From: an uncultured Chloroflexota bacterium
Lineage (GTDB): Bacteria; Chloroflexota; Dehalococcoidia; GIF9; AB-539-J10
DNA: 41,312 nucleotides
Reading direction: 5' to 3'
Assembly: GCA_903884455.1 (NCBI GenBank)
Contig: CAISEW010000003.1
Coordinates: 1 to 41,312 of the forward strand
The notes under the pieces were generated by a model, which saw only the letters and a list, made by a program, of their open reading frames with translations, did no database searches and was not told the DNA's origin. The first letter of the stretch is position 1. Each line of letters begins with the position of its first letter. Below are positions 5,556-20,058 of this stretch, in pieces. The translations under genes were made by a program, and so were the position numbers.

Positions 5556-8216
5556 ATGGAACAATATAAACTGTTTATCAATGGCGAGTTCGTAGATGCT
5601 GACAGTGGAAAAACGTTCGAGACGATTGACCCCGGCACTGAGGCACCCATAGCCACAGTAGCCCAAGCAGGAAAGGCTGACGCAGAAAAGGCCATAGCGG
5701 CGGCACGTAAGGCTTTCGACAGAGGGGATTGGAGCGGTCTTACCCCGGCAGCCCGTGCCGCCAAAGTCCAGGATTTTGCCGACCAGATAACACGGCAGGG
5801 TCTGCGCCTAGCTTTCACTGAATCGATGAACTCCGGCCAGGTCATATCACTGGCCAGGTTCATGCCTTTAATCAGTGTCACTTTATTACGCAATTTAAGC
5901 CTGGCGGCAGTCACAAAATTTCCTTGGGAGGAGGAAATACCAGTCTCAGGAAACGCTTTTGCGCCGGGCCGTGAATTCATCCGCAGGGAACCGGTTGGGG
6001 TATGTGTAGGAATTTCTCCCTGGAATTACCCTATGTATATAGCCTGCTGGAAGATCGCTCCCGCTCTCCTAATGGGGAACACTATGGTTTTGAAACCGGC
6101 TTCGTATACCCCTCTTACCGCACTCATAGTGGCAGAAGCAGCAAAAGCAGCTGGCATCCCGGATGGAGTATTCAACGTCATCGCTGGCCCAGGAAGGGAG
6201 TTGGGCGAAATTCTCTGCACCCACCCGGATGTAGATAAGATAGCCTTTACCGGCAGCACGGAAGTCGGTCGTGAAATCATGCGGATGGCTGCCGGTACAA
6301 TAAAAAAGGTGACGCTCGAGCTGGGCGGCAAGTCAGCCAATATCATACTCGACGATGCAGATATGGAGCTTGCCGTGGAGGGTGCCCTCTTTAGTAACTT
6401 CTTCCACCAAGGACAGGTTTGTTCCTCGGGTAGTCGTGTATTAGTCTCATCAAAGATTCATGATGAATTCCTCGACAAGATGATAAAGCGGGCTGAATCT
6501 ATCCGTATCGGATACCAGATGGACCAGACCTCTCACATGGGGCCCCTTGTCAGCAAACAGCAATTGGCTACAGTTGAACGCTATGTCAAACTGGGTAAGG
6601 AAGAGGGGGCGGAATTGATCACCGGCGGCAAACGCGTCGAGGTTAAAGGGATCAAAGGTGGGTTCTACTATGCTCCCACCATCTTTGCGAATGTGAACAA
6701 CAAGATGCGTATCGCGCAGGAGGAGATATTTGGCCCTGTTCTTTGCATCATAAAATACGATAGTGATGAAGAAGCGATTGCCATTGCTAATGATTCCGTG
6801 TACGGCCTGGCAGGTGGTGTATTTTCCACTAACACCGCCAGGGCTGAACGTATAGCTCGTGGGGTTCGTACTGGAACAATGTGGATTAACAATTACCACA
6901 TTTTTTCCGATTATTGCCCCTTCGGCGGCTACAAGCAATCTGGCGTCGGCCGCGAATTCGGTCTAGAAAGCCTGCGTGAATATACCCAAATCAAGAGAAT
7001 ACATGTATCCGCAATTGCCGACCATAAGTCGAATATGACCTTCCAAATTATGTCGGACTATAAGAAAGTAGACGGTTTTTCATATAATTGCCCGACTAAT
7101 GTAGTAGCCGGTCATGGGGCTCTGAGCTCAATCTACAAGGCAGTCGCCGATCTTGGCTGCCGCAGGGCTCTTATTCTTACCGACTCAGGAGTCAACAAAG
7201 CAGGGCTTGCCCAATTGGTGAAGGATGCCCTAGTGGATTTCTGTGTGGGCATCTATGACAATATCTCACCGGATCCCGATCTGGAAACAGTGGACGTGGC
7301 CAATGCCGTGGCCCGCGAACTGAAGGCGGACTGCATCGTCAGCGTCGGCGGTGGCAGCGTCATCGATACTGCCAAAGGGGTCTGTGTAACCTTAAAGAAC
7401 GGCGGCAAGATAAACGATTACCTAAACTTCCTGGTGCTTACTGAGCCACAAACCCCACACATCGCCATTCCCACAACAGCAGGGACCGGCAGCGAAGTAA
7501 CAAATATAGCCGTACTCACAAGCAAGGGCGGCGGACGTAAACTCTTCATAATAGACACACGAATCATGCCGAATGTGGCTATTCTGGACCCGCGTTTCAC
7601 CATGACCCTGCCCAAGGATTTAACAGTCACCACTGCCATGGATGCCATGACACATGCCATTGAGGCTATGATGAGCACCCTGGCGAACCAGATTTGCGAC
7701 GGTCTGGCATTACATGCCATACGCCTGATCAACGAGAACCTGCCACTTGTCGTAGCCGATGGTAGCAATGAAAAGGCACGGCTCAGTATGCAGCTAGCAG
7801 CCACCATGGCAGGGTGGGCATTCACCATTGCCCAGGTTGGTCTGGCGCATGGAATGGCACATACTATAGGGACGCTGCACCATGTCCCACACGGGGTAGC
7901 CTGCGGCATCGTATTACCTAAGGTGATGCGTTACAATGTTGACCATGCTGCTGACAAGCTGGCTCTGGTAGCACAGGCTCTGGGCATCAACACCGCCGGC
8001 ATGAAAGAACATGATGTCGCCCTGGCAGCAGCAGACGCAGTAGAATCCCTGATGAAAAAGGTGGGCCATCCGATGAGACTGCGCGACGTGGGCGTTCCGG
8101 AAGAAAACCTTGCAATATGCGCATTTCATGCGATTGCCGATACGGCTGTCATCTTCAATGGGCGCCCTGTCAGTGATCCAAACGAAGTTTTACAAATTTA
8201 TAGGCAGGCTTATTAG
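5556..8216 (+). CDS. Fusion of non-acylating aldehyde dehydrogenase and iron-type alcohol dehydrogenase
   Basis: The 886-residue protein joins two oxidoreductases. Residues 1 to about 485 form a classical NAD(P)-dependent aldehyde dehydrogenase: PWNYP 155-159, cofactor-region Lys180, FTGSTEVG 231-238, general-base Glu255 in LELGG, catalytic Cys289 in GQVCS, and EEIFGPV 389-395. Residues about 500-886 form a group III, iron-containing alcohol dehydrogenase: GGGSVIDTAK 598-607, GTGSE 643-647 and metal ligands Asp696, His700, His765 and His779, in the spacing of FucO. The order is that of AdhE, but AdhE carries an acylating aldehyde dehydrogenase. The predicted chain is therefore alcohol to aldehyde to free acid, without CoA. 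The ribosome site AAAGGAGGG is well placed before the ATG. Both domains look intact. The substrate is unknown. Confidence 0.92.
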   Translation: MEQYKLFINGEFVDADSGKTFETIDPGTEAPIATVAQAGKADAEKAIAAARKAFDRGDWSGLTPAARAAKVQDFADQITRQGLRLAFTESMNSGQVISLARFMPLISVTLLRNLSLAAVTKFPWEEEIPVSGNAFAPGREFIRREPVGVCVGISPWNYPMYIACWKIAPALLMGNTMVLKPASYTPLTALIVAEAAKAAGIPDGVFNVIAGPGRELGEILCTHPDVDKIAFTGSTEVGREIMRMAAGTIKKVTLELGGKSANIILDDADMELAVEGALFSNFFHQGQVCSSGSRVLVSSKIHDEFLDKMIKRAESIRIGYQMDQTSHMGPLVSKQQLATVERYVKLGKEEGAELITGGKRVEVKGIKGGFYYAPTIFANVNNKMRIAQEEIFGPVLCIIKYDSDEEAIAIANDSVYGLAGGVFSTNTARAERIARGVRTGTMWINNYHIFSDYCPFGGYKQSGVGREFGLESLREYTQIKRIHVSAIADHKSNMTFQIMSDYKKVDGFSYNCPTNVVAGHGALSSIYKAVADLGCRRALILTDSGVNKAGLAQLVKDALVDFCVGIYDNISPDPDLETVDVANAVARELKADCIVSVGGGSVIDTAKGVCVTLKNGGKINDYLNFLVLTEPQTPHIAIPTTAGTGSEVTNIAVLTSKGGGRKLFIIDTRIMPNVAILDPRFTMTLPKDLTVTTAMDAMTHAIEAMMSTLANQICDGLALHAIRLINENLPLVVADGSNEKARLSMQLAATMAGWAFTIAQVGLAHGMAHTIGTLHHVPHGVACGIVLPKVMRYNVDHAADKLALVAQALGINTAGMKEHDVALAAADAVESLMKKVGHPMRLRDVGVPEENLAICAFHAIADTAVIFNGRPVSDPNEVLQIYRQAY

Positions 8217-8451: not shown

Positions 8452-8720
8452 CTAGCTGTATTTATCCCTCCTGATGGATAGTAATGCATCTTTAGCTAAC
8501 CAGAACTCCCTGACTACCCTTCTACCGTATTTCTCGTTCACTTCCTGAGTTACCAGATAGACGACCTTGCTGCAATCTGTGAATTGAAGCTAGGTCACCA
8601 ACATAACCCCGCGCATCATATAGATAATATCCCATTAATTCACCTTGGCGGCCGATGTCGCTAATTGTGTTAATTCTACCTTAATATGCTGGATTTGCTG
8701 ACAGAAGGCAAGTACCGATT
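8452..8720 (-). pseudogene. Remnant of a decayed gene, frame-shifted
   Basis: Read on the minus strand, three overlapping frames each give protein-like text. From about 8717 it reads QQIQHIKVELTQLATSAAK, from about 8680 ISDIGRQGELMGYYLYDARG, and from 8589 to a TAG at 8452-8454 a 45-residue stretch including VVYLVTQEVNEKYGRRVVRE. The pieces are joined only by changes of frame and stops interrupt each, as expected of a gene broken by small indels. The family is not recognised, and the charged, helical end could fit many proteins. This is a reading by eye and could be accidental. Confidence 0.3.
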
Positions 8721-8797
8721 ATTAACGGAAGTATTGGCTAATGCCAGGTTTTGCCGTCCAACCTGGGCAATATGCTATCCGATGCCATGTAACATTT

Positions 8798-8870
8798 TAG
8801 CGATTTGTTAAATCCTCCGATACAGCCTCAAGCTATCCTCGAACTTCACCGAAAACTGTTCTCATTGTTG
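8798..8870 (+). repeat. Degenerate relative of the dispersed repeat
   Basis: The start, TAACATTTTAGCGATTTGTT (8790-8809), resembles the left end of copy A (TAACATTCTAGCGGTTTGTA), and a later AGCTATCCT is shared with the stretch at 13242. Beyond that the match fades. Membership of the repeat family is tentative. Confidence 0.3.
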
Positions 8871-8942
8871 TTCCGTTAGTTTCAGGCTATACCGGACAAA
8901 TTGGTTTTTTGCCTTCAACGTATTGTGGACATATAATGAATC

Positions 8943-9473
8943 ATGTTTTGCCCCAATGATAGGACTGAAATGCACGAGGTCAAAATAGTATCGCATTATG
9001 GTCAGCCAATCATTGTTGACCAGTGTGAGAAGTGTGGAGGTATCTGGTTCGACGAGTCGGAGCTATTTCGGGCAAAACAAGGTGAGGCAGAGAAAATCGA
9101 GGTACTGAATACCGAAATTCTACGGACTCCCTCCACGATTGAGAATTCCAGCTTAATTTGCCCCAGAGACCAAACAACAATGCACCGATTTACTGACAAG
9201 TATTTCCCTCAGGATATTGTCTTAGTGCGTTGCCTATCGTGTCATGGAATCTGGATCAATAGAGGCACGTTCACGAAGTATCAGCAATTCCGCCAAAAAT
9301 TAATGCCGAAGAAGAAAAGCTCTCAAGATGAGAGACTGGAAAAAAGCATTGCTCCGTTGATAGTATCATACAAATACGAGTGCGAACGCTCAAATGAAGC
9401 ACAGAGAAGAGATGTCGATATTGCTCTTAATATCCTGAAAACAATCCTAAGGTTGTTCATTTTCAAGTCCTGA
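8943..9473 (+). CDS. Two-ribbon zinc-finger protein (zf-TFIIB type)
   Basis: The 176-residue protein has two related zinc-ribbon units. The first spans residues 1-40 with Cys3 in CPND, then C28 and C31 in CEKCGGIWFDESEL. The second spans about 71-110 with Cys73 in CPRD, then C97 and C100 in CLSCHGIWINRGTF. The CxxCxGIWxD pattern is the mark of the zf-TFIIB family of bacterial proteins, whose function is mostly unknown. In both units the second Cys of the first knuckle is replaced by Asp, so metal binding may be altered. The C-terminal 70 residues are Lys/Glu-rich and end in a hydrophobic stretch. The gene stands alone; the ATG was chosen because it directly precedes the first ribbon. Confidence 0.75.
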   Translation: MFCPNDRTEMHEVKIVSHYGQPIIVDQCEKCGGIWFDESELFRAKQGEAEKIEVLNTEILRTPSTIENSSLICPRDQTTMHRFTDKYFPQDIVLVRCLSCHGIWINRGTFTKYQQFRQKLMPKKKSSQDERLEKSIAPLIVSYKYECERSNEAQRRDVDIALNILKTILRLFIFKS

Positions 9474-9567
9474 TACATCAACAAGAGTAGAAGATAACGA
9501 TAGAATATTGAGTGACACATTTGCTTGTCTTGTTACCTCTGACGTAACAATAAGCCATTTTGTGATT

Positions 9568-9596
9568 TTGCCGAAATCAGTAAGGTTCGATACAAT
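9568..9596 (+). promoter_or_regulatory. Predicted promoter for the SpoIIM-like gene
   Basis: TTGCCG (9568-9573) and TACAAT (9591-9596) are 17 bases apart. Transcription would start near 9603, about 18 bases before the ATG at 9621. Confidence 0.5.
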
Positions 9597-9620
9597 GACT
9601 GCTTAGCTTTAGAGTGAATC

Positions 9621-10208
9621 ATGCAGGTAACTCAGATAATAAGACAAAAGGTGTTGATTCGGAATCTTATATTGGCGACCAGCACATTTTTTGTTAGTCT
9701 TGTATTAGGTACGCTTATTGGTCAGAATACCGCTGAGGGGCTTATGAGACAGTTCGGCGTTGTACTAGAGCCCTTGGCATAGATGGGTAACCCGTCTATG
9801 CTATTGTTCTTAATAATATTCATCAACAACGCAATCAAGGCTCTCGGGCTAGTTTTTTTAGGTATCTTACTGGGACTACCACCTCTATTTTTCATAGGCC
9901 TAAACGGCTTTATCCTTGGAGGCTTCGGCTCCGCGCTTGAATCAGTCAACGGATGGAGATATGTTATAGCTAACTTTGTACCGCATGGTGTGATCGAGAT
10001 TCCAGTGATCTTGCTAGCCACCGCTTTGGGTCTCACGGTAGGTATGGAATCACTTAAATGGCTAGTACGAAGAGAGAGCCGAGTCAAATTACAGTTGTCA
10101 GATTGCCTTAAAGTTTACTTGAGGTGGATTCTTCCTGGGCTTGCCGTTGCAGCCATCATAGAGGTCTTTGTTACCCCCTTGCTAATCGGGTTGGTTAATG
10201 TTGGTTAG
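9621..10208 (+). pseudogene. SpoIIM/DUF95-like membrane protein split by an in-frame TAG
   Basis: The frame from the ATG at 9621 to the stop at 10206-10208 would give about 194 residues, the usual size of SpoIIM-family (DUF95) membrane proteins. The segments fit: an N-terminal helix (ILATSTFFVSLVLGTLIG), then LLFLIIFINNAIKALG, a GLPPLFFIGLNGFILGG helix pair, PHGVIEIP, and a last hydrophobic helix near the C-terminus. A TAG at 9780-9782 interrupts it after residue 53, and an ATG follows at once, so the downstream 141 residues might be made by restart. The family occurs widely outside spore formers and its role there is unknown. Whether the stop is a real mutation, a sequencing error or recoded cannot be settled here. 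Confidence 0.7.
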
Positions 10209-10358
10209 CTTGGCTTCTGTAAATATCCCCGCAGACAAATGCGAACAGGCTTGAGGACATTTTCCAGTCTGTTGTGGGTTCTCAATGGAGATTCAGGCAC
10301 TCAAAGAATACTGAGATGGCTTCCTTTGATGCTCGAGAAGTTTGGCCGCTGCACGATT

Positions 10359-11691: not shown

Positions 11692-11721
11692 TTGGATTTC
11701 GCCTTGGAATGTGAGCCGCCT

Positions 11722-13185
11722 ATGACTGGGGAAAAATTCCACGCGCTGTTTAATGCACGTTCCATAGCTTTTCTGGGCGCTTCCAAAGACCCCAGAAAGT
11801 GGGGGTTCACCATGCTAAATAACGTGATAAATGGTGGATTTAAGGGGAGGATCTATCCGGTAAACCCTAATGAAGACGAGATACTGGGACTTAAGGTATA
11901 CAAAAGCATTGCCGATATTCCGGAAATACCTGATCTGGCGGTCATTGCAGTGCCGCCTATGAACGTGCTTCAGGTAGTTAAAGAATGTGTCAAAAGAGGG
12001 GTAAGGGCGGGAATAGTCATAACTGCTGGATTTGCCGAGCTTGGGGAGAGTGGAGCACGGCTTGAACAGGAGCTGATCGAGGTAGCCCGTACTGGTGAAA
12101 TGGTCTTGGTGGGGCCAAACTGCAATGGAATAATGAACCCTTGGGAGAAGCTCTATATTCAATTCCCACCTTTCTTCGTTCCACCTGGCCCCATAGCCGT
12201 TATCGCCCAAAGCGGTAATGTGGTTGATTCCTTAGCACGTCAAATCATGTTGCGGGGCTTCGGCTGCAGCATATGTATAAGCAGCGGTAATGAGGCCGAC
12301 CTACACAGCGAAGACTATCTGGAGTACCTGGCGGAAGATCCCCACACTAAAGTCATTTTGAGCTACATCGAAGGTTTTAAGGACGGCAAACGATTTTTCC
12401 GGGTAGCCAGGGAGGTTAGCCAAAAGAAGCCCATTGTCATGGTCAAGGCAGGAAGAACGTCAGCCGGGGCCAAGGCTGCCCTATCACACACCGCGTCTAT
12501 CGCTGGGGCGGATGCCGTCTTCGAAGCTGTATGCAAACAATCTGGGATGGTAAGGGCAAAGAGTTTGGATGATTTGTTGAACGTTGGCATAGCCTTTCTT
12601 CGGCAACCTCTACCCAAGGGCATGAGAGTAGGCATAGTGACCGCTGGTGGAGGCGCAGGGGTCCTCGCCGCCGATGCATGCGCCGAACTGGGCCTTGAGG
12701 TGGTCTCCTTACCTAAGGTGACCATTAAGGAGCTGGATAGTTTCATGCCTGCGTGGTGGAATCGAAATAATCCGGTTGACTTGGTGGCTGGCGGTTCGAC
12801 AGATACAAGTTTTAAAGCCGTTGAAACGGTGTTGCGCTGTCCATCAGTGGATGGGGTTATTATGATGAGTATAATGCCTGCTTTGCGTTTGGAAAGGCTC
12901 TCTGCATCCGCTGATGAAGCTGATAGACAGCGTTGGGCAAATAACTTGGTCCGAGCGGTAGTCAGTGTCATAGAAAGATTCACTAATCTGGCCGATAGAT
13001 ATCAAAAGCCTGTTATTGTTGCATCTGAGCAAATGTTTGCTGACGCCATCCAGGAGACCAAGATCATCTATGCTCTGGGACGGCAAAACCTTATGTGCTA
13101 TCACATGCCCCACCAAGCAGCTGTGGTGCTCTCTGGCTTAGCTAGTTATAGAGAGTATCTGGAGCGTTATGGAAAGCATGAATAA
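11722..13185 (+). CDS. NDP-forming acyl-CoA synthetase, alpha-subunit type
   Basis: The 487-residue protein has the layout of the alpha part of ADP-forming acetyl/acyl-CoA synthetases: an N-terminal CoA-binding Rossmann domain (NARSIAFLGASKDPRKWG), a succinyl-CoA synthetase-like ligase domain with GPNCNG at 131-136 and IAQSGN, and His256 in LSHTASIAG as the likely phosphohistidine. A third domain follows, with TAGGGAGVLAAD. The ATP-grasp beta part is absent and no separate beta gene is nearby, so the protein would need a partner from elsewhere. Known enzymes make acyl-CoA from acid, CoA and ATP, or run in reverse. The ATG at 11722 matches the usual beginning; a TTG at 11692 is a less likely alternative. 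It could activate the acid made by the fusion dehydrogenase (inference). Confidence 0.85.
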   Translation: MTGEKFHALFNARSIAFLGASKDPRKWGFTMLNNVINGGFKGRIYPVNPNEDEILGLKVYKSIADIPEIPDLAVIAVPPMNVLQVVKECVKRGVRAGIVITAGFAELGESGARLEQELIEVARTGEMVLVGPNCNGIMNPWEKLYIQFPPFFVPPGPIAVIAQSGNVVDSLARQIMLRGFGCSICISSGNEADLHSEDYLEYLAEDPHTKVILSYIEGFKDGKRFFRVAREVSQKKPIVMVKAGRTSAGAKAALSHTASIAGADAVFEAVCKQSGMVRAKSLDDLLNVGIAFLRQPLPKGMRVGIVTAGGGAGVLAADACAELGLEVVSLPKVTIKELDSFMPAWWNRNNPVDLVAGGSTDTSFKAVETVLRCPSVDGVIMMSIMPALRLERLSASADEADRQRWANNLVRAVVSVIERFTNLADRYQKPVIVASEQMFADAIQETKIIYALGRQNLMCYHMPHQAAVVLSGLASYREYLERYGKHE

Positions 13186-13447: not shown

Positions 13448-14119
13448 TTGTCTGAAGAGTTCACAATACGCACCTTTAGTAGTGACGAGGCTTTAGTCAA
13501 AGAGCGCAGAAATCATATAGTTCGCTGCTCTACAAAAGTATTTACTAAGAAAGGATATGACCGAACCAATATGCGTGAGTTGGCTAAAGCTTGCGAGATG
13601 AGTGCCGGCGCGCTGTATCACTATTTTGGTTCTAAAGAAGAGATGCTCTATTCGATTATCAATAGTGCTACGTCACAACAGGCGGGTTCCATGGAAGATT
13701 ATGCCAATGAGTTGGCAACAGCGAGCCCAACACTAGCTCTTGTAGGGCTTATGAGAAAATTTTATGAATGGCATGACGACAATCAAGATATTACTCTATT
13801 TGCATATCAGGAAACGAAAAACCTGCCAGGCAATGCCCAAGAAAGTATTTTCGACTCCGAAGCGCGTATATTAACTGTATTTGAGAAGTTGCTGATAAAA
13901 GGTATGGAAGAGGGTGAGTTTAATATTGATGATCCCAGGTTGATTGCTCATGATATAGTCGTTCTTGGGCATGCCTGGGCCCTCAGGCGTTGGCATCTGA
14001 GAAAACACTGGACTTTCAAAACATATGTAAAGAAACAGACCGATGCTATGTTAAGGGCGATTACGATAGATAATAACACTGATGTTGCCAATAAACAGAG
14101 AAAGGAGTCGTCCAAGTGA
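13448..14119 (+). CDS. TetR/AcrR family transcriptional regulator
   Basis: The 223-residue protein has a TetR-type helix-turn-helix at about residues 20-70. It reads RRNHIVRCSTKVFTKKGYD, then TNMRELAKACEMSAGALYHY followed by FGSKEEML. The ligand-binding C-terminal domain is helical; in this subfamily it often senses acyl-CoA or related compounds, which would suit its neighbours (inference). TTG at 13448 is the only suitable start, with GGGTGAG just before it. The last codons overlap the start of the thiolase-like gene (GTGA), so the regulator is made in step with the enzymes it probably controls. A strong promoter and a palindromic operator precede it, which suggests autorepression of the whole operon. 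Confidence 0.85.
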   Translation: MSEEFTIRTFSSDEALVKERRNHIVRCSTKVFTKKGYDRTNMRELAKACEMSAGALYHYFGSKEEMLYSIINSATSQQAGSMEDYANELATASPTLALVGLMRKFYEWHDDNQDITLFAYQETKNLPGNAQESIFDSEARILTVFEKLLIKGMEEGEFNIDDPRLIAHDIVVLGHAWALRRWHLRKHWTFKTYVKKQTDAMLRAITIDNNTDVANKQRKESSK

Positions 14120-15486
14120 TTATTTTGAAGAAAGGAAATTTGCGCATTCCCAAATGGAACAGAAAGGTATTTGCAGTTGCTGGGGGTCTGACAAATTATA
14201 AAAAGTTTTGCCCGGAAATGAAGCTTGAAGAGCAAGTGATGGTGGCATTCCGGCAGATGTTGGAGAATAATGATTTAAAGATCTCTCCGGCAGAAATCAA
14301 GGGATTAGTCAACTTTCTGGCCTGCGGTAATTTTTCCGACCACTTTCAAGACCAGCTCCTGTGCGAAGCCAAGGTCACTGACTACCTCGGCCTTGATCCC
14401 ATGTACGATATAGGTATCAAGACGGGCGGGGCTACCGGTGGCTCCACAGTGCTAACAGCCGCTATGGCGATAGCCAGTGGATATGCTGATGTGGCGTTAG
14501 CAGTAGGCTGGGAGCGCATGTCTGAAGTGGATACGCGAACAGGTAACTACTACATTGCTAACGCAGCCTGTAAAGACTTTGAGACCAGGCTTTCCCGCAT
14601 TTATGCTGCCTACTATGCTCCTATGGCCGTCCGTTTCGCCTGGGCCTACAACCTCTCTGAGGAGACTAGAGCCAAGGTGGCAGTCAAGAATCATCTCTAC
14701 GCCTATTACTCGCCATATTCCCAGCAGCCAGGCAAGTACACAATTCAGGATGTCCTTAACAGCCCAATGTCAACCTACCCGTTACGTTTCTTGGAATGTT
14801 GTGCCATGACAGATGGTGCTGCCTGCATGCTACTTTGCGATGAAAAAACTGCCTATAAGTTAACCGATAAACCTTGCGAGCTTTTCATAGCCGGCGGGAG
14901 CCATACCTTGAGGGTGGCAGACCGTAGGGACATGGAGATCCCGTTACTGCCACATGAGACTCCTGATATGTATAAGGGCCTGCGCAAAAAAGAGGGGCAG
15001 CGGTGGCCGGGATTTGAAAGCTTTGCTGCGGCACGATTTGCCGCTTATTTTGCTTACCGAATGGCCGGCGTTACTAACCCGCTTGAAGAGCTTGACCTGG
15101 TGGAGTTGCATGATGCATTTACCATAAGTGACATTCAAACTTATGGAGACATTGGACTCCGTCCCTATGGACAGGAACCTGATTACATTGAATCTGGAGA
15201 TGCTTATTTTGGTGGTAAATGTCCATCCAATCTGTCGGGAGGGTTAATAGGCACCATGCATGCCGTAGGAGCAACTGGCATCTTTCAAGGAATCGAGTGC
15301 CTCTGGCAAATACAGGGCAAGTATAATAAGTTTCATGGCGACCCCAAGATTTGGGAGTCTTTTGGCAAGAAAAAGCCCAAAGATTGGAAGAGTCTCCAAG
15401 TACCTAACGCTAAACAGGCAGCCTGGGTATCTCACGCTGGTGTCGGGTCACATGTAACAGTAGGCATTCTCAGGAAGGCTTTCTAA
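14116..15486 (+). CDS. Thiolase-like enzyme lacking the nucleophilic cysteine
   Basis: The 456-residue protein belongs to the SCP2/lipid-transfer branch of the thiolase family. The active-site parts are visible: IKTGGATGG (101-109), LHDAFT with His332, and HAVGATG with His382. Where thiolases of this branch have the nucleophilic Cys (as in EAACASGG), this protein has Gly105. Loss of that Cys is known from Ltp2, a thiolase-fold aldolase that works with a DUF35 partner in steroid side-chain cleavage, so a retro-aldol or other C-C cleavage is as likely as thiolysis. It is followed by a DUF35 gene after 12 bases. The GTG start overlaps the TetR stop and has AAAGGAG eight bases upstream. The substrate is unknown. 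Confidence 0.82.
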   Translation: MIILKKGNLRIPKWNRKVFAVAGGLTNYKKFCPEMKLEEQVMVAFRQMLENNDLKISPAEIKGLVNFLACGNFSDHFQDQLLCEAKVTDYLGLDPMYDIGIKTGGATGGSTVLTAAMAIASGYADVALAVGWERMSEVDTRTGNYYIANAACKDFETRLSRIYAAYYAPMAVRFAWAYNLSEETRAKVAVKNHLYAYYSPYSQQPGKYTIQDVLNSPMSTYPLRFLECCAMTDGAACMLLCDEKTAYKLTDKPCELFIAGGSHTLRVADRRDMEIPLLPHETPDMYKGLRKKEGQRWPGFESFAAARFAAYFAYRMAGVTNPLEELDLVELHDAFTISDIQTYGDIGLRPYGQEPDYIESGDAYFGGKCPSNLSGGLIGTMHAVGATGIFQGIECLWQIQGKYNKFHGDPKIWESFGKKKPKDWKSLQVPNAKQAAWVSHAGVGSHVTVGILRKAF

Positions 15487-15498
15487 AGGAGGGAAACT

Positions 15499-16020
15499 GT
15501 GGCATCAAAAAGCAAGATAACAAAGTATACTGGCAAACCAGCAAAGGTGCTTCAATCCGAACCAGCCATAGTGATAGAGTGGCCGAGGAGTTTGGCCCAC
15601 AGGCATACTTATGGAAAACTTTCCCCGTTCTTCAAAGGTCTGACAGAGGGCAAACTGCTGGCTACGAGATGCATCAATCCTGAATGTGTAGAACACAGGC
15701 TGTGGCTTCCGCCGCGGGCTGACTGCCCCGATTGCAACCAGCCCATGACCTGGGAAGAACTGCCCCAGCCAGTAATTGGCACGGTGCACACCTATGCGCG
15801 TGTGGAGTACGCCGGTGCTGGCATAGAACTCACTACCCCCTATTTCCAGGTTGACGTTGAGTTGCCTGGCGTATGCACTATATTCAAGGGCTATCTGCAA
15901 TACGGAACACCCGAAATAGGCATGAAAGTTAAGGCTTGCTTTCGAACCGAAGACCCTACTAACACAATTCTTGACATGTACTGGATCCCTTTAGCCGATG
16001 ATAAAGCCGCCCGGTTTTGA
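15499..16020 (+). CDS. DUF35 OB-fold protein with rubredoxin-like zinc ribbon
   Basis: The 173-residue protein has an N-terminal helical part, a zinc ribbon with Cys58, Cys63, Cys76 and Cys79, and a C-terminal OB-fold (about residues 90-165: GTVHTYARVEYAG, then VDVELPGVCTIFKGYL). DUF35 proteins form complexes with SCP2-type thiolases or Ltp2-type aldolases and shape CoA-substrate access. The partner here is the gene just upstream. AAAGGAGGG precedes the GTG start. Its presence strengthens the view that the upstream enzyme is a functional two-protein complex and not a decayed thiolase. Confidence 0.85.
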   Translation: MASKSKITKYTGKPAKVLQSEPAIVIEWPRSLAHRHTYGKLSPFFKGLTEGKLLATRCINPECVEHRLWLPPRADCPDCNQPMTWEELPQPVIGTVHTYARVEYAGAGIELTTPYFQVDVELPGVCTIFKGYLQYGTPEIGMKVKACFRTEDPTNTILDMYWIPLADDKAARF

Positions 16021-16079
16021 ACAGGTAATTGGCAGCGAGCTAACTGGCACAAACACTAACAAAACAGGGGAGAGATGGC

Positions 16080-18041
16080 ATGGGCAAGTTACTTTGGGAG
16101 CCGACGGAAGAGCGAAAGAAGAATGCGAACATAACCAGCTTCATGAAGTTCGTTAACAAACGACATAAACAGAGCTTTCGTTCCTATAAAGAGCTTTATG
16201 ACTGGTCCGTAGATAAGATACCGGATTTCTGGGCTGCTGTGTGGGATTTTGTTGGGGTGAAGGTTTCCAAAGGCTACAAGGTAGTGGTTGACGATGTAAC
16301 TAAGATGCCGGGTGCAAAATGGTTTACTGGCGCGAGGCTAAATTTCGCCGAAAATCTACTGAGATACAGGGATAAGAAGACAGCCTTCATCTTCAAAGGA
16401 GAAACTCAGAAGACAGAGAGGATGAGTTACGCTGAACTGTATAAATCTGTGGCACGCCTGGCAGAATCTCTTCGAGAAGTAGGAATCAAGCCTGGAGACC
16501 GGGTGGCTGCCTACATGCCTAATATGATAGGGACGGCTGTGGCGATGCTTGCCAGCACGAGTATCGGCGCTGTCTGGGCTTCGTGTGCCACCGATATCGG
16601 TTCTGGGGCAGCCATTGATCGCTTTGGTCAAATCGAACCAAAAGTTCTGTTTACCGCTGATGGCTATTTCTACAAAGGAAAACCCTTCAATTCTCTCTCT
16701 AACGCTGCTGAAATTGTAAAGGGGGTACCCTCTATTGAGAAAGTCATAGTGGCCCGCTACAGGGAAGAGAAACCCGATATCAGCCATATTCCTAACTCCG
16801 TATATTATGATGATTTTCTATCACGAGAGAAGTCGGAAATTCAATTCGAACAATTGCCCGCAGACCATCCTGTGTTCATCATGTTTTCGTCAGGGACGAC
16901 TGGCAAGCCAAAGTGCATGGTTCAAGGAGCAGCCGGAATTCTGGTTAATCAACTGAAGGAGCTAATAATCCACACCGATTTGAAGCGAGACGATGTCCAT
17001 TTCTTTATCACGACTTGTAGCTGGATGATGTGGAACTGGATGCTGACTTCCTTAGCCACAGGTAACACCATTATTCTGTATGATGGCAACCCCACCTATC
17101 CTAGGCCAGGGGCTATGTGGAAACTGATACAGGATGAAAAAGTGACTATGTTTGGCTGCAGCTCCAGCTACATTAACTATCTCAGGAGTGAAAACATTAG
17201 GCCGGCTAATGATTATGACCTGTCGTCATTAAAGGAAATATGGCAGACTGGTTCGGTTCTATCAGCGGAAGGATTCGAGTACGTGTATCAGGAAGTCAAG
17301 AAAGACCTGCATTTTAATTCCAGTTCAGGTGGCACAGACATCAATGGCTGCTTTTTCACCGGAAGTCCGATTCAGCCTGTATACGCTGGTGAGTTACAGG
17401 GGCCGGGTTTGGGGATGAAGGTGAAAGCGTATGATGAAGAAGGGCATCCGGTATTTGACCAGCAGGGCGAACTCGCCTGTGAAGCCGCTGCCCCGCCTAT
17501 GCCGCTTTATTTCTGGAATGATCTGGACGGTAAGAAGTACAGGGACGCTTATTTTGGTGTTTACCCTGGTGTGTGGCGTCACGGGGACTATATAGTATTT
17601 CATAGTGATACCGGAGGAGCTACTTTCTATGGTCGCTCTGACTCAGTACTGAAACCGTCCGGTGTTCGCATAGGTACGGCCGAAATATATAACGTGATGG
17701 AAGGGCTACTGGAGATTGCTGATAGCCTAGCAATAGGGCAGAGATGGGAGGGAGACCAGCGTGTCCTTCTTTTTGTCAAATTGGCTGAAGGATATCATCT
17801 AACGGAAGACCTGGAGAACAAAATCAAGAGAAATCTTCGTGAGAAAGCTTCCCCAAGACACGTCCCAGCGAGAATCATTGCGGTACCGGATATTCCTTAC
17901 ACCACGAACATGAAGAAGGTCGAAAGCGCTGTCACAAACATAATGCATGGCAGGCCCGTCCTGAACAGGAATGCCTTGTGCAATCCCCAATGCCTGGATT
18001 ACTATGAGAAGCTTATTGGAGAAGGGGTACTCAAATCTTAA
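16080..18041 (+). CDS. Acetoacetyl-CoA synthetase-like acyl-CoA ligase
   Basis: The 653-residue protein is an AMP-forming ligase of the acetoacetyl-CoA synthetase family; the length and the N-terminal ACAS-type segment (MGKLLWEPTEERKKNANI) fit. The phosphate-binding motif SSGTTGKPK is at 270-278. The hinge region reads YGRSDSVLKPSGVRIG and the C-terminal catalytic lysine lies in PYTTNMKKVE. The reaction is acid plus ATP plus CoA to acyl-CoA, AMP and PPi. Acetoacetate or another 3-oxoacid is the expected substrate, and the product would be a natural substrate for a C-C cleaving partner. A GGGGAGAG ribosome site precedes the ATG. It is the third enzyme gene of the TetR-controlled operon. Confidence 0.88.
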   Translation: MGKLLWEPTEERKKNANITSFMKFVNKRHKQSFRSYKELYDWSVDKIPDFWAAVWDFVGVKVSKGYKVVVDDVTKMPGAKWFTGARLNFAENLLRYRDKKTAFIFKGETQKTERMSYAELYKSVARLAESLREVGIKPGDRVAAYMPNMIGTAVAMLASTSIGAVWASCATDIGSGAAIDRFGQIEPKVLFTADGYFYKGKPFNSLSNAAEIVKGVPSIEKVIVARYREEKPDISHIPNSVYYDDFLSREKSEIQFEQLPADHPVFIMFSSGTTGKPKCMVQGAAGILVNQLKELIIHTDLKRDDVHFFITTCSWMMWNWMLTSLATGNTIILYDGNPTYPRPGAMWKLIQDEKVTMFGCSSSYINYLRSENIRPANDYDLSSLKEIWQTGSVLSAEGFEYVYQEVKKDLHFNSSSGGTDINGCFFTGSPIQPVYAGELQGPGLGMKVKAYDEEGHPVFDQQGELACEAAAPPMPLYFWNDLDGKKYRDAYFGVYPGVWRHGDYIVFHSDTGGATFYGRSDSVLKPSGVRIGTAEIYNVMEGLLEIADSLAIGQRWEGDQRVLLFVKLAEGYHLTEDLENKIKRNLREKASPRHVPARIIAVPDIPYTTNMKKVESAVTNIMHGRPVLNRNALCNPQCLDYYEKLIGEGVLKS

Positions 18042-18191
18042 TCTACTCTTATGAGAAACGCGAGGAGCCGAAACATTGAGAGCAATTGGACTCAGTAGCG
18101 ACATTGCTCAAACACAGTTCAAGAAAGCGGGAGCCCTCAGGTACCTTTCTTGTGTATACTGCGCGGAGAGTACCCTTGGGGGAGATGAACC

Positions 18192-19355
18192 ATGGATTTT
18201 GATTTGAGCGAAGAGCAGAATCTAACACGCCAGGCGATTCGGGCTTTCGCTGAAAGGCAGATTGCCCCGATCGCCCGAGAGCTGGACGAAAAGGAGAAGT
18301 TTTCTGCCGAGCTAACGCACAAAATGGCGGACTTAGGGCTGCTGGGTTGCTTTGTTCCAGAGAAATATGGCGGCTCCAATATGGGCTACATCTCGTATGC
18401 AATTGCGGTTGAAGAGCTGGCTAGGGTGGATGCTTCCCAGGCCGCTACTATTGCTGCCGGAAACTCTCTAGGAATTGGCCCCATCTATTATTTCGGTAAC
18501 GAAAAGCAAAAGCAAGAATGGCTTCCCAGGCTCTGTTCGGGAGAGTGCCTAGCTGCATTTGGTCTGACGGAGCCTGATGCTGGCTCCGACGCTGGAAGCT
18601 CTCGAACCACCGCAACACTTGAAGGGGACTACTGGACTATCAATGGGCATAAAATTTTTATCACCAACTCGGCTTGCCCATTGACCGGTGTTATTATTGT
18701 CCAGGCTGTCACTGGTAAACATGAGGATGGCAAACCAGAGATTAGTTGCCTTATCGTTCCGAGCGACACACCTGGCTTGACAGCTAAGGAGATGAAAGAC
18801 AAGATGATGTGGCGAGCATCCAACACGGGTGAACTTTTTTTCGATGATTGTATTGTGCCTGAAGCAAACCTTCTAGGAAAAAGGGGGGACGGCTTCCATC
18901 AAATGCTTGCGACACTGGATGGCGGACGCCTTAGCATCGCCGCCATGGGATTGGGTGGGTCTCAGGCGGCTTTCGAGTTGGCCTTACAATACGCCAATTC
19001 TCGCATCCAATTTGGACGGCCAATCGGTTCCTTTCAAGTTAACGCTTTCAAACTAGCCGACATGGCCCTAGAGATCGAACTGGCCAGGAATCTTCTCTAC
19101 AAGACCTGCTGGCTGCGAGAAAACGGACGTCCCATTACTAAAGAGGCAGCCATGGCAAAATTGTTCTGTTCCGAGGTTATGCGCCGCTGTGTCCATCACG
19201 CAGTGCAACTTCACGGAGGGTACGGGCTGATGAAGGATTATGAAGTCGAGAGATTATATCGGGATCAGAGGATTCTGGAGATCGGCGAGGGAACGTCGGA
19301 AATACTACGCATCGTGATTGCTCGTAACATTGGCGTGTCGGGAAGGGCAATCTAG
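18192..19355 (+). CDS. Acyl-CoA dehydrogenase
   Basis: The 387-residue flavoprotein has the three-domain layout of the family: an N-terminal helical domain (MDFDLSEEQNLTRQAIRAFA), the middle beta domain with AAFGLTEPDAGSDAGSSR and WTINGHKIFITN, and the C-terminal helices with RIQFGRPIGSFQ. Glu366 in IGEGTSEI is at the position of the catalytic base of medium- and short-chain enzymes. It would oxidise a saturated acyl-CoA to the 2-enoyl-CoA, passing electrons to ETF. Neither ETF nor enoyl-CoA hydratase genes are in the window. GGGGGAG lies just before the ATG. The 150-base gap from the ligase gene is longer than elsewhere in the operon and may contain an internal promoter, but I see no clear one. 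Confidence 0.9.
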   Translation: MDFDLSEEQNLTRQAIRAFAERQIAPIARELDEKEKFSAELTHKMADLGLLGCFVPEKYGGSNMGYISYAIAVEELARVDASQAATIAAGNSLGIGPIYYFGNEKQKQEWLPRLCSGECLAAFGLTEPDAGSDAGSSRTTATLEGDYWTINGHKIFITNSACPLTGVIIVQAVTGKHEDGKPEISCLIVPSDTPGLTAKEMKDKMMWRASNTGELFFDDCIVPEANLLGKRGDGFHQMLATLDGGRLSIAAMGLGGSQAAFELALQYANSRIQFGRPIGSFQVNAFKLADMALEIELARNLLYKTCWLRENGRPITKEAAMAKLFCSEVMRRCVHHAVQLHGGYGLMKDYEVERLYRDQRILEIGEGTSEILRIVIARNIGVSGRAI

Positions 19356-19368
19356 AAGGAAGGGCACC

Positions 19369-20058
19369 ATGAAAAAAGAGAAGGCAAAACGCAAGACTTC
19401 TGCCAGAGTGAGTCCGGCTAAGAGTAAAGCGGCGAGGCATGATGATTTTCTCACCGACTCGGCTAACATCGCTCGCATACAAGAGGTAGAGGGGGAAAAA
19501 GAATCTCTGAGCGATCGGCTTCGCAGGGTTCGAGAAATGCGGGGACTTACCATTAGGGACCTCAGTAGCCGAACAGGGATCAATATAGCTACCTTGGAAC
19601 GTATAGAATCAGGCGAAATAATCCCGGCATTAGGGCAGTTAGTTAGGTTAGGCAGAGCGCTTGATATGAAGATGGGCTACTTTATCTCGCCAGGAATTGA
19701 CAAGCTCATGTCCGTGGTGCGCAAGCACGAACGGCGGCCAATATCTCGCTACGGAGAGGCGAAGAGCATCGAGTGCGGTTACTTTTACGAATCCCTGGCC
19801 CCGGAAAAGGCCGACCGATTGATGGAGCCTTTTATTGTGACGCTGGTGCCAACAGACATAGAAGAGTTCTCCGCCCACGCCGGACAGGAGTTTATTTATG
19901 TCCTGGAGGGCGAAATGAAAGTGCAAGTTGGGGATCGCGTCGACCTTCTCAAGCCTGGAGATGCCATTTATTACGACTCTAATCAACCTCACTTCGTTAG
20001 ATGTGCCGGCACCACTGCAACGAAGTTATTGGCTGTTCTTTATACGGGATCACCATAG
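19369..20058 (+). CDS. XRE-family regulator with C-terminal cupin sensor domain
   Basis: From the ATG at 19369 the product has 229 residues. A basic N-terminal tail is followed by an XRE helix-turn-helix (about residues 45-105: LRRVREMRGLTIRDLSSRTG then TLERIESGEIIPALGQLVRL). The C-terminal cupin has HAGQEFIYVLEGEMKVQVGD and LKPGDAIYYDSNQPHFVR. This combination regulates catabolic or sugar genes in many bacteria, with the cupin binding a small ligand. The gene follows the acyl-CoA dehydrogenase by 13 bases, with GAAGGAAGGG in between, so it is a second regulator at the end of the operon. A longer frame starting upstream is rejected because the ribosome site is inside it. Confidence 0.85.
   Translation: MKKEKAKRKTSARVSPAKSKAARHDDFLTDSANIARIQEVEGEKESLSDRLRRVREMRGLTIRDLSSRTGINIATLERIESGEIIPALGQLVRLGRALDMKMGYFISPGIDKLMSVVRKHERRPISRYGEAKSIECGYFYESLAPEKADRLMEPFIVTLVPTDIEEFSAHAGQEFIYVLEGEMKVQVGDRVDLLKPGDAIYYDSNQPHFVRCAGTTATKLLAVLYTGSP

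Follow-up and report, generated by a model that had tools for sequence, protein, structure and literature searches.

The DNA analyzed here (the window) is a stretch of 41,312 nucleotides from an uncultured Dehalococcoidia bacterium of the phylum Chloroflexota (contig CAISEW010000003.1); the window genes from 13448 to 20058 described below lie on the forward strand. At 14116..15486 it carries a gene with a GTG start for a thiolase-fold protein of 456 amino acids that lacks the nucleophilic cysteine of thiolases, here termed ThiL. After a gap of 12 bases, and preceded by an AGGAGG-like site, a second gene with a GTG start (15499..16020) encodes a DUF35 (zinc-ribbon OB-fold) partner of 173 amino acids. 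Its matches to zf-ChsH2 and OB_ChsH2_C both fell slightly under the Pfam cut-offs, and it also matched the DUF35 chain of 6esq (6esq_E; E value of 2.4e-4). The pairing of the two genes, which had been claimed from the sequence alone (the sequence-only reading), proved to be a recurrent one: across clades I to IV of the family, described below, a DUF35 gene lay directly 3' of the ThiL gene at every locus with a flank read except L118. Most clade I partners retained the C-x4-C...C-x2-C and H-x-H-T-Y-G motifs; the partner at the Chloroflexota locus L125 (7241-7789) has no zinc-ribbon cysteines. A gene cluster of Desulfotomaculum arcticum that includes a B12 mutase also encodes a DUF35 protein and an acetyl-CoA acetyltransferase (04021/04022), both induced by acetone (PMC8084838).

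Two Pfam domains scored above their cut-offs in ThiL, Thiolase_C_1 at 71 bits and Thiolase_N at 55. In HMMER alignments to 6esq, 7yvy, and 6hsj, the nucleophilic Cys of those proteins fell on Gly105 (codon 14428..14430), within the IKTGGATGG in which the sequence-only reading had placed the loss, and this position was Gly in all 20 orthologues of alignment A1, a conservation that rules out a mutation in one genome or an assembly error. Across 87 non-redundant thiolase-like relatives, the nucleophile position held Gly in 63, Cys in 23, and another residue in one. The HDAF and MHAVGATG motifs, which that reading had described as retained, are both present. Their histidines, the oxyanion-hole His332 (15109..15111) and the GHP-type His382 (15259..15261), correspond to those of the thiolase HDCF and GHP motifs and were found in 97% of clades I to IV and 91% of the Cys-bearing rows of the alignment. 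The second catalytic Cys of thiolases, that of HDCF, is Ala334 in ThiL and was Cys in 21 of the 23 Cys-bearing rows. Neither of the two residues that had been singled out for checking as a substitute nucleophile, Cys70 (in 4 of the 20 orthologues) and Cys83 (17 of 20), takes the position, and Cys152, Cys228, Cys229, and Cys241, although invariant in A1, align elsewhere. The other thiolases of the same genome (L060-L062) retain both the Cys and HDCF. ThiL thus lacks the nucleophile with which helix N-alpha-3 begins in SCP2-type/degradative thiolases, and the acyl-enzyme reaction of thiolases is unlikely because this Cys is missing.

A first AlphaFold2 model, for which close orthologues were used, was of low quality near the active site (predicted local distance difference test [pLDDT] of 73.6); a model built from 45 diverse relatives reached a pLDDT of 92.1 and a predicted template modeling score of 0.94. 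In the latter, a helix begins at residue 107, as in thiolases, and the best structural match was 6et9 (Z score of 55.4, root mean square deviation of 1.5 Å over 384 residues), followed by 4yzo (Z of 52.5), 7yvy (51.9), BbsB (48.9), Ltp2 (45.0), and Sal (43.8). ThiL is thus predicted to have the thiolase fold, in agreement with the sequence-only reading and with its Pfam domains.

Clade I relatives, 59 to 97% identical to ThiL, came from Chloroflexota, Desulfarculaceae, Syntrophaceae, Zixibacteria, Planctomycetota, WOR-3, and a marine proteobacterial metagenome-assembled genome, with Thermodesulfobacteriota among the phyla represented. In these orthologues KTGGATGG was itself invariant, and HDAFTISD, MHAVGATG, and SHAG.GSHVT were likewise invariant or nearly so. 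Further Cys-less clades were less similar to ThiL (clade II, ~52% identity; III, ~40%; IV and V, ~33% each); clade III has the motif VEGGGATGG in the nucleophile region, and clade V has [TA]PYD instead of HDAF. In a quickly computed 68-row tree that excluded the motif columns, and in which some of the remaining Gly rows sit on long branches, the 23 Cys-bearing rows were split from all Cys-less rows on a single branch (Shimodaira-Hasegawa-like approximate likelihood ratio test [SH-aLRT] support of 97), and clades I to V were united (SH-aLRT 99). Clade IV consists of L084, L110, L150, L153, and L156; automatic labels put the last four under clade III, which shows two changes because they are counted there.

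The NCBIfam model PRK06365 (NF004982, "thiolase domain-containing protein"; cut-off of 695 bits) gave scores at or above its cut-off to clade II and III proteins (774, 744, and 695.7 bits; L101, L098, and L075 reached it) and lower ones to clade I (534 bits for the window protein, and 546), clade IV (402), and clade V (350). PRK06365 covers the wider Cys-less family and leaves its function unnamed; a search of open-licence papers, which also took in dismutation by Smithella and isobutyrate gene clusters containing DUF35, likewise turned up no name for it. Among the matches listed in a plasmid search, relatives were at most 31% identical. The Cys-less family is old, widespread, and functionally unnamed. 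The clade V Dehalococcoidia proteins L016, L017, and L018 have FTPYDG or FAPYDG in place of the His332 motif and keep His440 and Tyr163. Other Cys-less thiolase-fold proteins of Dehalococcoidia lie outside clades I to V (L032 2688-3926, L139, L142-L144, and L146), and several such proteins carry Y-D motifs nearer the pattern of the steroid aldolases Ltp2 and Sal.

The loss of the nucleophile is accompanied by gains. His76 (14341..14343), Gln80, Tyr163 (14602..14604), and His440 (15433..15435), the last within the C-terminal catalytic loop, were invariant in the 36 rows of clades I to IV and the 3 rows of clade V. None of the 23 Cys-bearing rows had His76, Tyr163 (Ala, Phe, Ser, or another residue instead), or His440 (Leu, Phe, Val, or Ala), and Gln80 occurred in 3 of them. 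His332 is lost in clade V. Within clade I, the active-site residues are invariant or nearly so, and it is this constraint, together with the gain and fixation of new ionizable residues, that makes it very unlikely that ThiL is a non-catalytic CoA-binding scaffold or pseudoenzyme for a mutase or dehydrogenase, a role that the missing nucleophile and the tight linkage to other enzymes would suit.

Upstream of the pair, a gene for a TetR-family regulator (13448..14119; TetR_N, 58 bits) overlaps the start of the ThiL gene by 4 bases, such that the GTG start lies over the TetR stop codon; TetR genes ~90% identical occupy the equivalent place in L027 and L043. Downstream lie genes for an acetoacetate-CoA ligase-like AMP-forming ligase (16080..18041), an acyl-CoA dehydrogenase of the butyryl/short-chain type (18192..19355), and an XRE-cupin regulator (19318..20058). 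Homologues of this regulator recur near many clade I pairs (L038-L041, L046, and L129-L131), sometimes two per locus. The window also encodes an ADP-forming acyl-CoA synthetase of alpha type (11692-13185; its score of 445 bits is under the 567 required for the acetate-CoA ligase alpha subunit) and an AdhE-like bifunctional aldehyde/alcohol dehydrogenase (5556-8216). The identity of the ligase, described in the sequence-only reading as acetoacetyl-CoA synthetase-like, held up (TIGR01217, 819.7 bits against a cut-off of 520.9), whereas its significance as a neighbor is local: it adjoins the pair in closely related Dehalococcoidia and in one other Chloroflexota locus (L033), and is mostly absent elsewhere, so we rejected it as part of a conserved core.

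The links that cross clades are instead an acyl-CoA dehydrogenase and, in three clades, a B12 mutase of the isobutyryl-CoA mutase type with MeaB. Homologues of the dehydrogenase lie near the pair in most loci, including 14 of the first 24, several of the remainder being incomplete. The order mutase large subunit, mutase small subunit, ThiL, DUF35, dehydrogenase was found in 15 loci, from clade I (L034, L133, L166, and L167), clade III (L117, L119-L122, and L170-L172; L118 is rearranged), and clade IV (L127, L168, and L169), with MeaB next in 12 of the 15. All mutases typed by residue (L034, L117-L122, L127, L133, and a copy in the genome of the window) have Phe and Gln at two specificity positions, those of Tyr89 and Arg207 in methylmalonyl-CoA mutase, which we take to be the isobutyryl-CoA mutase pattern; the mutases of L166-L172 were assigned by their 62 to 83% similarity to the typed ones. 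L034 also has a second mutase, this one of Tyr/Arg type. The same-genome copy is encoded apart from the window, on contig 5 (L165; large subunit at 8536-10260), along with a small subunit and an acyl-CoA dehydrogenase. Because mutase-family genes occurred in 161 of 297 genomes, whole-genome co-occurrence was uninformative and gene order was used in its place. Clade III loci additionally carry CoA-transferase subunits, further dehydrogenases, an enoyl-CoA hydratase, and a 3-hydroxyacyl-CoA dehydrogenase, as well as a thiolase whose Pfam type is the ordinary one.

The sequence-only reading had suggested that the pair makes or breaks C-C bonds in carbon catabolism, and for a Cys-less thiolase fold with a DUF35 partner this is probably right. 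Ltp2 and Sal, which likewise combine a thiolase fold having Gly for Cys with DUF35, catalyze retro-aldol cleavage (PMC12329534), a precedent for what such a fold can do, and the mutase and dehydrogenase neighbors point to branched acyl-CoA substrates. We tentatively propose that ThiL-DUF35 cleaves C-C bonds without a Cys, as a lyase of the thiolase superfamily and most likely as a retro-aldolase acting on a branched 3-hydroxyacyl-CoA in an anaerobic branched-acid pathway; among the readings weighed, retro-aldol cleavage is the best supported, while falling short of being probable. The cleavage would release acetyl-CoA (or propionyl-CoA) together with either a ketone or an aldehyde. His332 and His382 would hold the thioester enolate oxygen, much as in thiolases, and the backbone amide of Gly105 the beta-oxygen, while Tyr163, His440, and perhaps His76 could supply the acid and base; DUF35 may complete the cleft for CoA and substrate, as in Ltp2-ChsH2 and Sal-Shy. 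In the putative pathway, the acid would be activated by the ligase here and perhaps by the CoA-transferase in clade III, the mutase, where present, would rearrange the branch, and the dehydrogenase would form an enoyl-CoA to which a putative hydratase adds water. ThiL-DUF35 would then cleave where a tertiary or blocked 3-hydroxyl bars the oxidation required for ordinary thiolysis.

Several observations weigh against a retro-aldolase of this kind. The catalytic Tyr residues of Ltp2 and Sal are missing in ThiL, so that the closest mechanistic precedent cannot be transferred residue for residue. Six clade I loci with flanks read (L035, L036, L042, L044, L045, and L049) have neither dehydrogenase nor mutase nearby, and neither the window nor the clade I and IV mutase operons, as read, showed a hydratase next to the pair. 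Acyl-CoA dehydrogenases can be typed by the placement of their catalytic Glu, and the window enzyme is of the short-chain type, with a loop Glu, and not isovaleryl-CoA dehydrogenase-like, which argues against a beta-methyl substrate. Typing thus gave no support to an isovaleryl-CoA dehydrogenase as the neighbor of ThiL.

Both oxyanion histidines are retained in clade I, unlike in Ltp2 and Sal, and this would also suit a retro-Claisen cleavage without a covalent intermediate, in which water or CoA occupies the place of the Cys, where Gly105 leaves room, and is activated by His440 of the catalytic loop to attack a 3-oxoacyl-CoA, giving an acid or acyl-CoA plus acetyl-CoA. We consider this unlikely, since the clade III operons already contain a Cys-type thiolase of another subfamily and we know of no precedent for the reaction among thiolase-fold enzymes with DUF35. 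The same operons, in which the pair stands amid mutase, dehydrogenases, hydratase, 3-hydroxyacyl-CoA dehydrogenase, thiolase, and CoA-transferase, could also be read in the joining direction. An aldol synthase would then form a 2-methyl-3-hydroxyacyl-CoA that, once dehydrated and reduced, feeds the mutase, typed in clade III as isobutyryl-type (for example, 2-methylpentanoyl-CoA to hexanoyl-CoA), as a possible route from propionate to butyrate. The neighboring genes leave the required aldehyde or second acyl donor unexplained, and for this scheme, which builds on Smithella physiology, no supporting paper was found among the open-licence papers searched; we regard it as highly improbable.

A special case of retro-aldol cleavage is suggested by the ligase directly downstream in the window: ThiL-DUF35 might substitute for 3-hydroxy-3-methylglutaryl-CoA (HMG-CoA) lyase, splitting HMG-CoA into acetyl-CoA and acetoacetate, which the ligase would re-activate. 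Two Chloroflexota loci, L125 and L126, have a 3-methylcrotonyl-CoA carboxylase-like beta gene oriented divergently from the pair; typing bore this identity out for L125 (779 bits versus ~295 for the propionyl type), and a biotin carboxylase gene is nearby in L126. The carboxyltransferase beside the clade II locus L114 is propionyl-type. Among 301 Chloroflexota genomes, 11 of the 12 that were ThiL-positive had no canonical HMG-CoA lyase, against a background that was 51% positive (Fisher P = 0.0025), and ThiL was present in 4 of 23 carboxylase-positive, lyase-negative genomes versus 1 of 99 with both (P = 0.004), both P values overstating the association because the genomes are related. However, the other 19 of those 23 genomes were without ThiL, and the 4 with it represent a single family. 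The genome of the window itself (99.5% complete) yielded no match at an E value of 1e-140 to 3-methylcrotonyl-CoA carboxylase, one possible source of HMG-CoA, a canonical HMG-CoA lyase scored above cut-off in five genomes outside Chloroflexota that carry ThiL, and the ligase lies outside the wider conserved core. As an account of ThiL-DUF35 the lyase substitution is therefore quite unlikely; such a role is possible in some lineages and is not general.

A more far-reaching form of the retro-aldol proposal, which we hold as doubtful, is that ThiL represents a third kind of thiolase-fold C-C lyase, whose site of His332, His382, His440, and Tyr163 replaces the Cys of thiolases or the catalytic pair of Ltp2 and Sal. 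It would follow the isobutyryl-type B12 mutase and the acyl-CoA dehydrogenase and carry out a hitherto undescribed step of anaerobic branched-acid degradation shared by several phyla. Family members carry the name of thiolases, whose activity they are unlikely to have in the absence of the Cys. If the proposal is true, a C-C bond step is missing from metabolic reconstructions of Dehalococcoidia and of sulfate-reducing or syntrophic bacteria, and another Cys-free active site has evolved in the thiolase fold. The linkage to B12 mutases points to a concrete substrate class.

Among known systems, the closest structure is the archaeal acetoacetyl-CoA thiolase of the thiolase/HMG-CoA synthase/DUF35 complex (6esq, 6et9), which shares the type of DUF35 subunit and, unlike ThiL, has the Cys nucleophile and HDCF. 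Benzoylsuccinyl-CoA thiolase BbsAB (7pxp) has HDAF and DUF35 in common with ThiL, but BbsB retains the Cys. ST0096 of Sulfolobus tokodaii (4yzo) is also Cys-less (aligned motif NTSGSGG); it differs in having Ser at the nucleophile position and an HDMAT motif, and its entry title gives no function.

The steroid aldolases Ltp2-ChsH2 and Sal-Shy (6ok1, 9myr), in which Shy is the DUF35 protein, share with ThiL the thiolase fold, the Gly-for-Cys replacement, and the DUF35 partner. To this extent the likeness to Ltp2 drawn by the sequence-only reading stands; it does not extend to the mechanism. Ltp2 relies on Tyr294 (of YDHF) and Tyr344, and Sal on two residues of YDCY, Tyr302 and Cys304; Sal has Gln352 where Ltp2 has Tyr344 (PMC12329534). 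Where these enzymes have the catalytic Tyr of Y-D-[HC]-[FY], ThiL has His332 of H-D-A-F; Ala334 stands in place of Sal Cys304, and His382, by a count of 50 residues on from the shared motif, in place of Ltp2 Tyr344 and Sal Gln352. With His332 and His382 at the catalytic Tyr positions, an Ltp2-type mechanism was rejected for ThiL. Neither steroid genes nor a MaoC hydratase were seen beside ThiL, unlike Ltp2 and Sal, and His76, Tyr163, and His440 are peculiar to the ThiL side of the comparison. The new Tyr163 and His440, together with the retained histidines, point to an acid-base arrangement different from that of Ltp2 and Sal.

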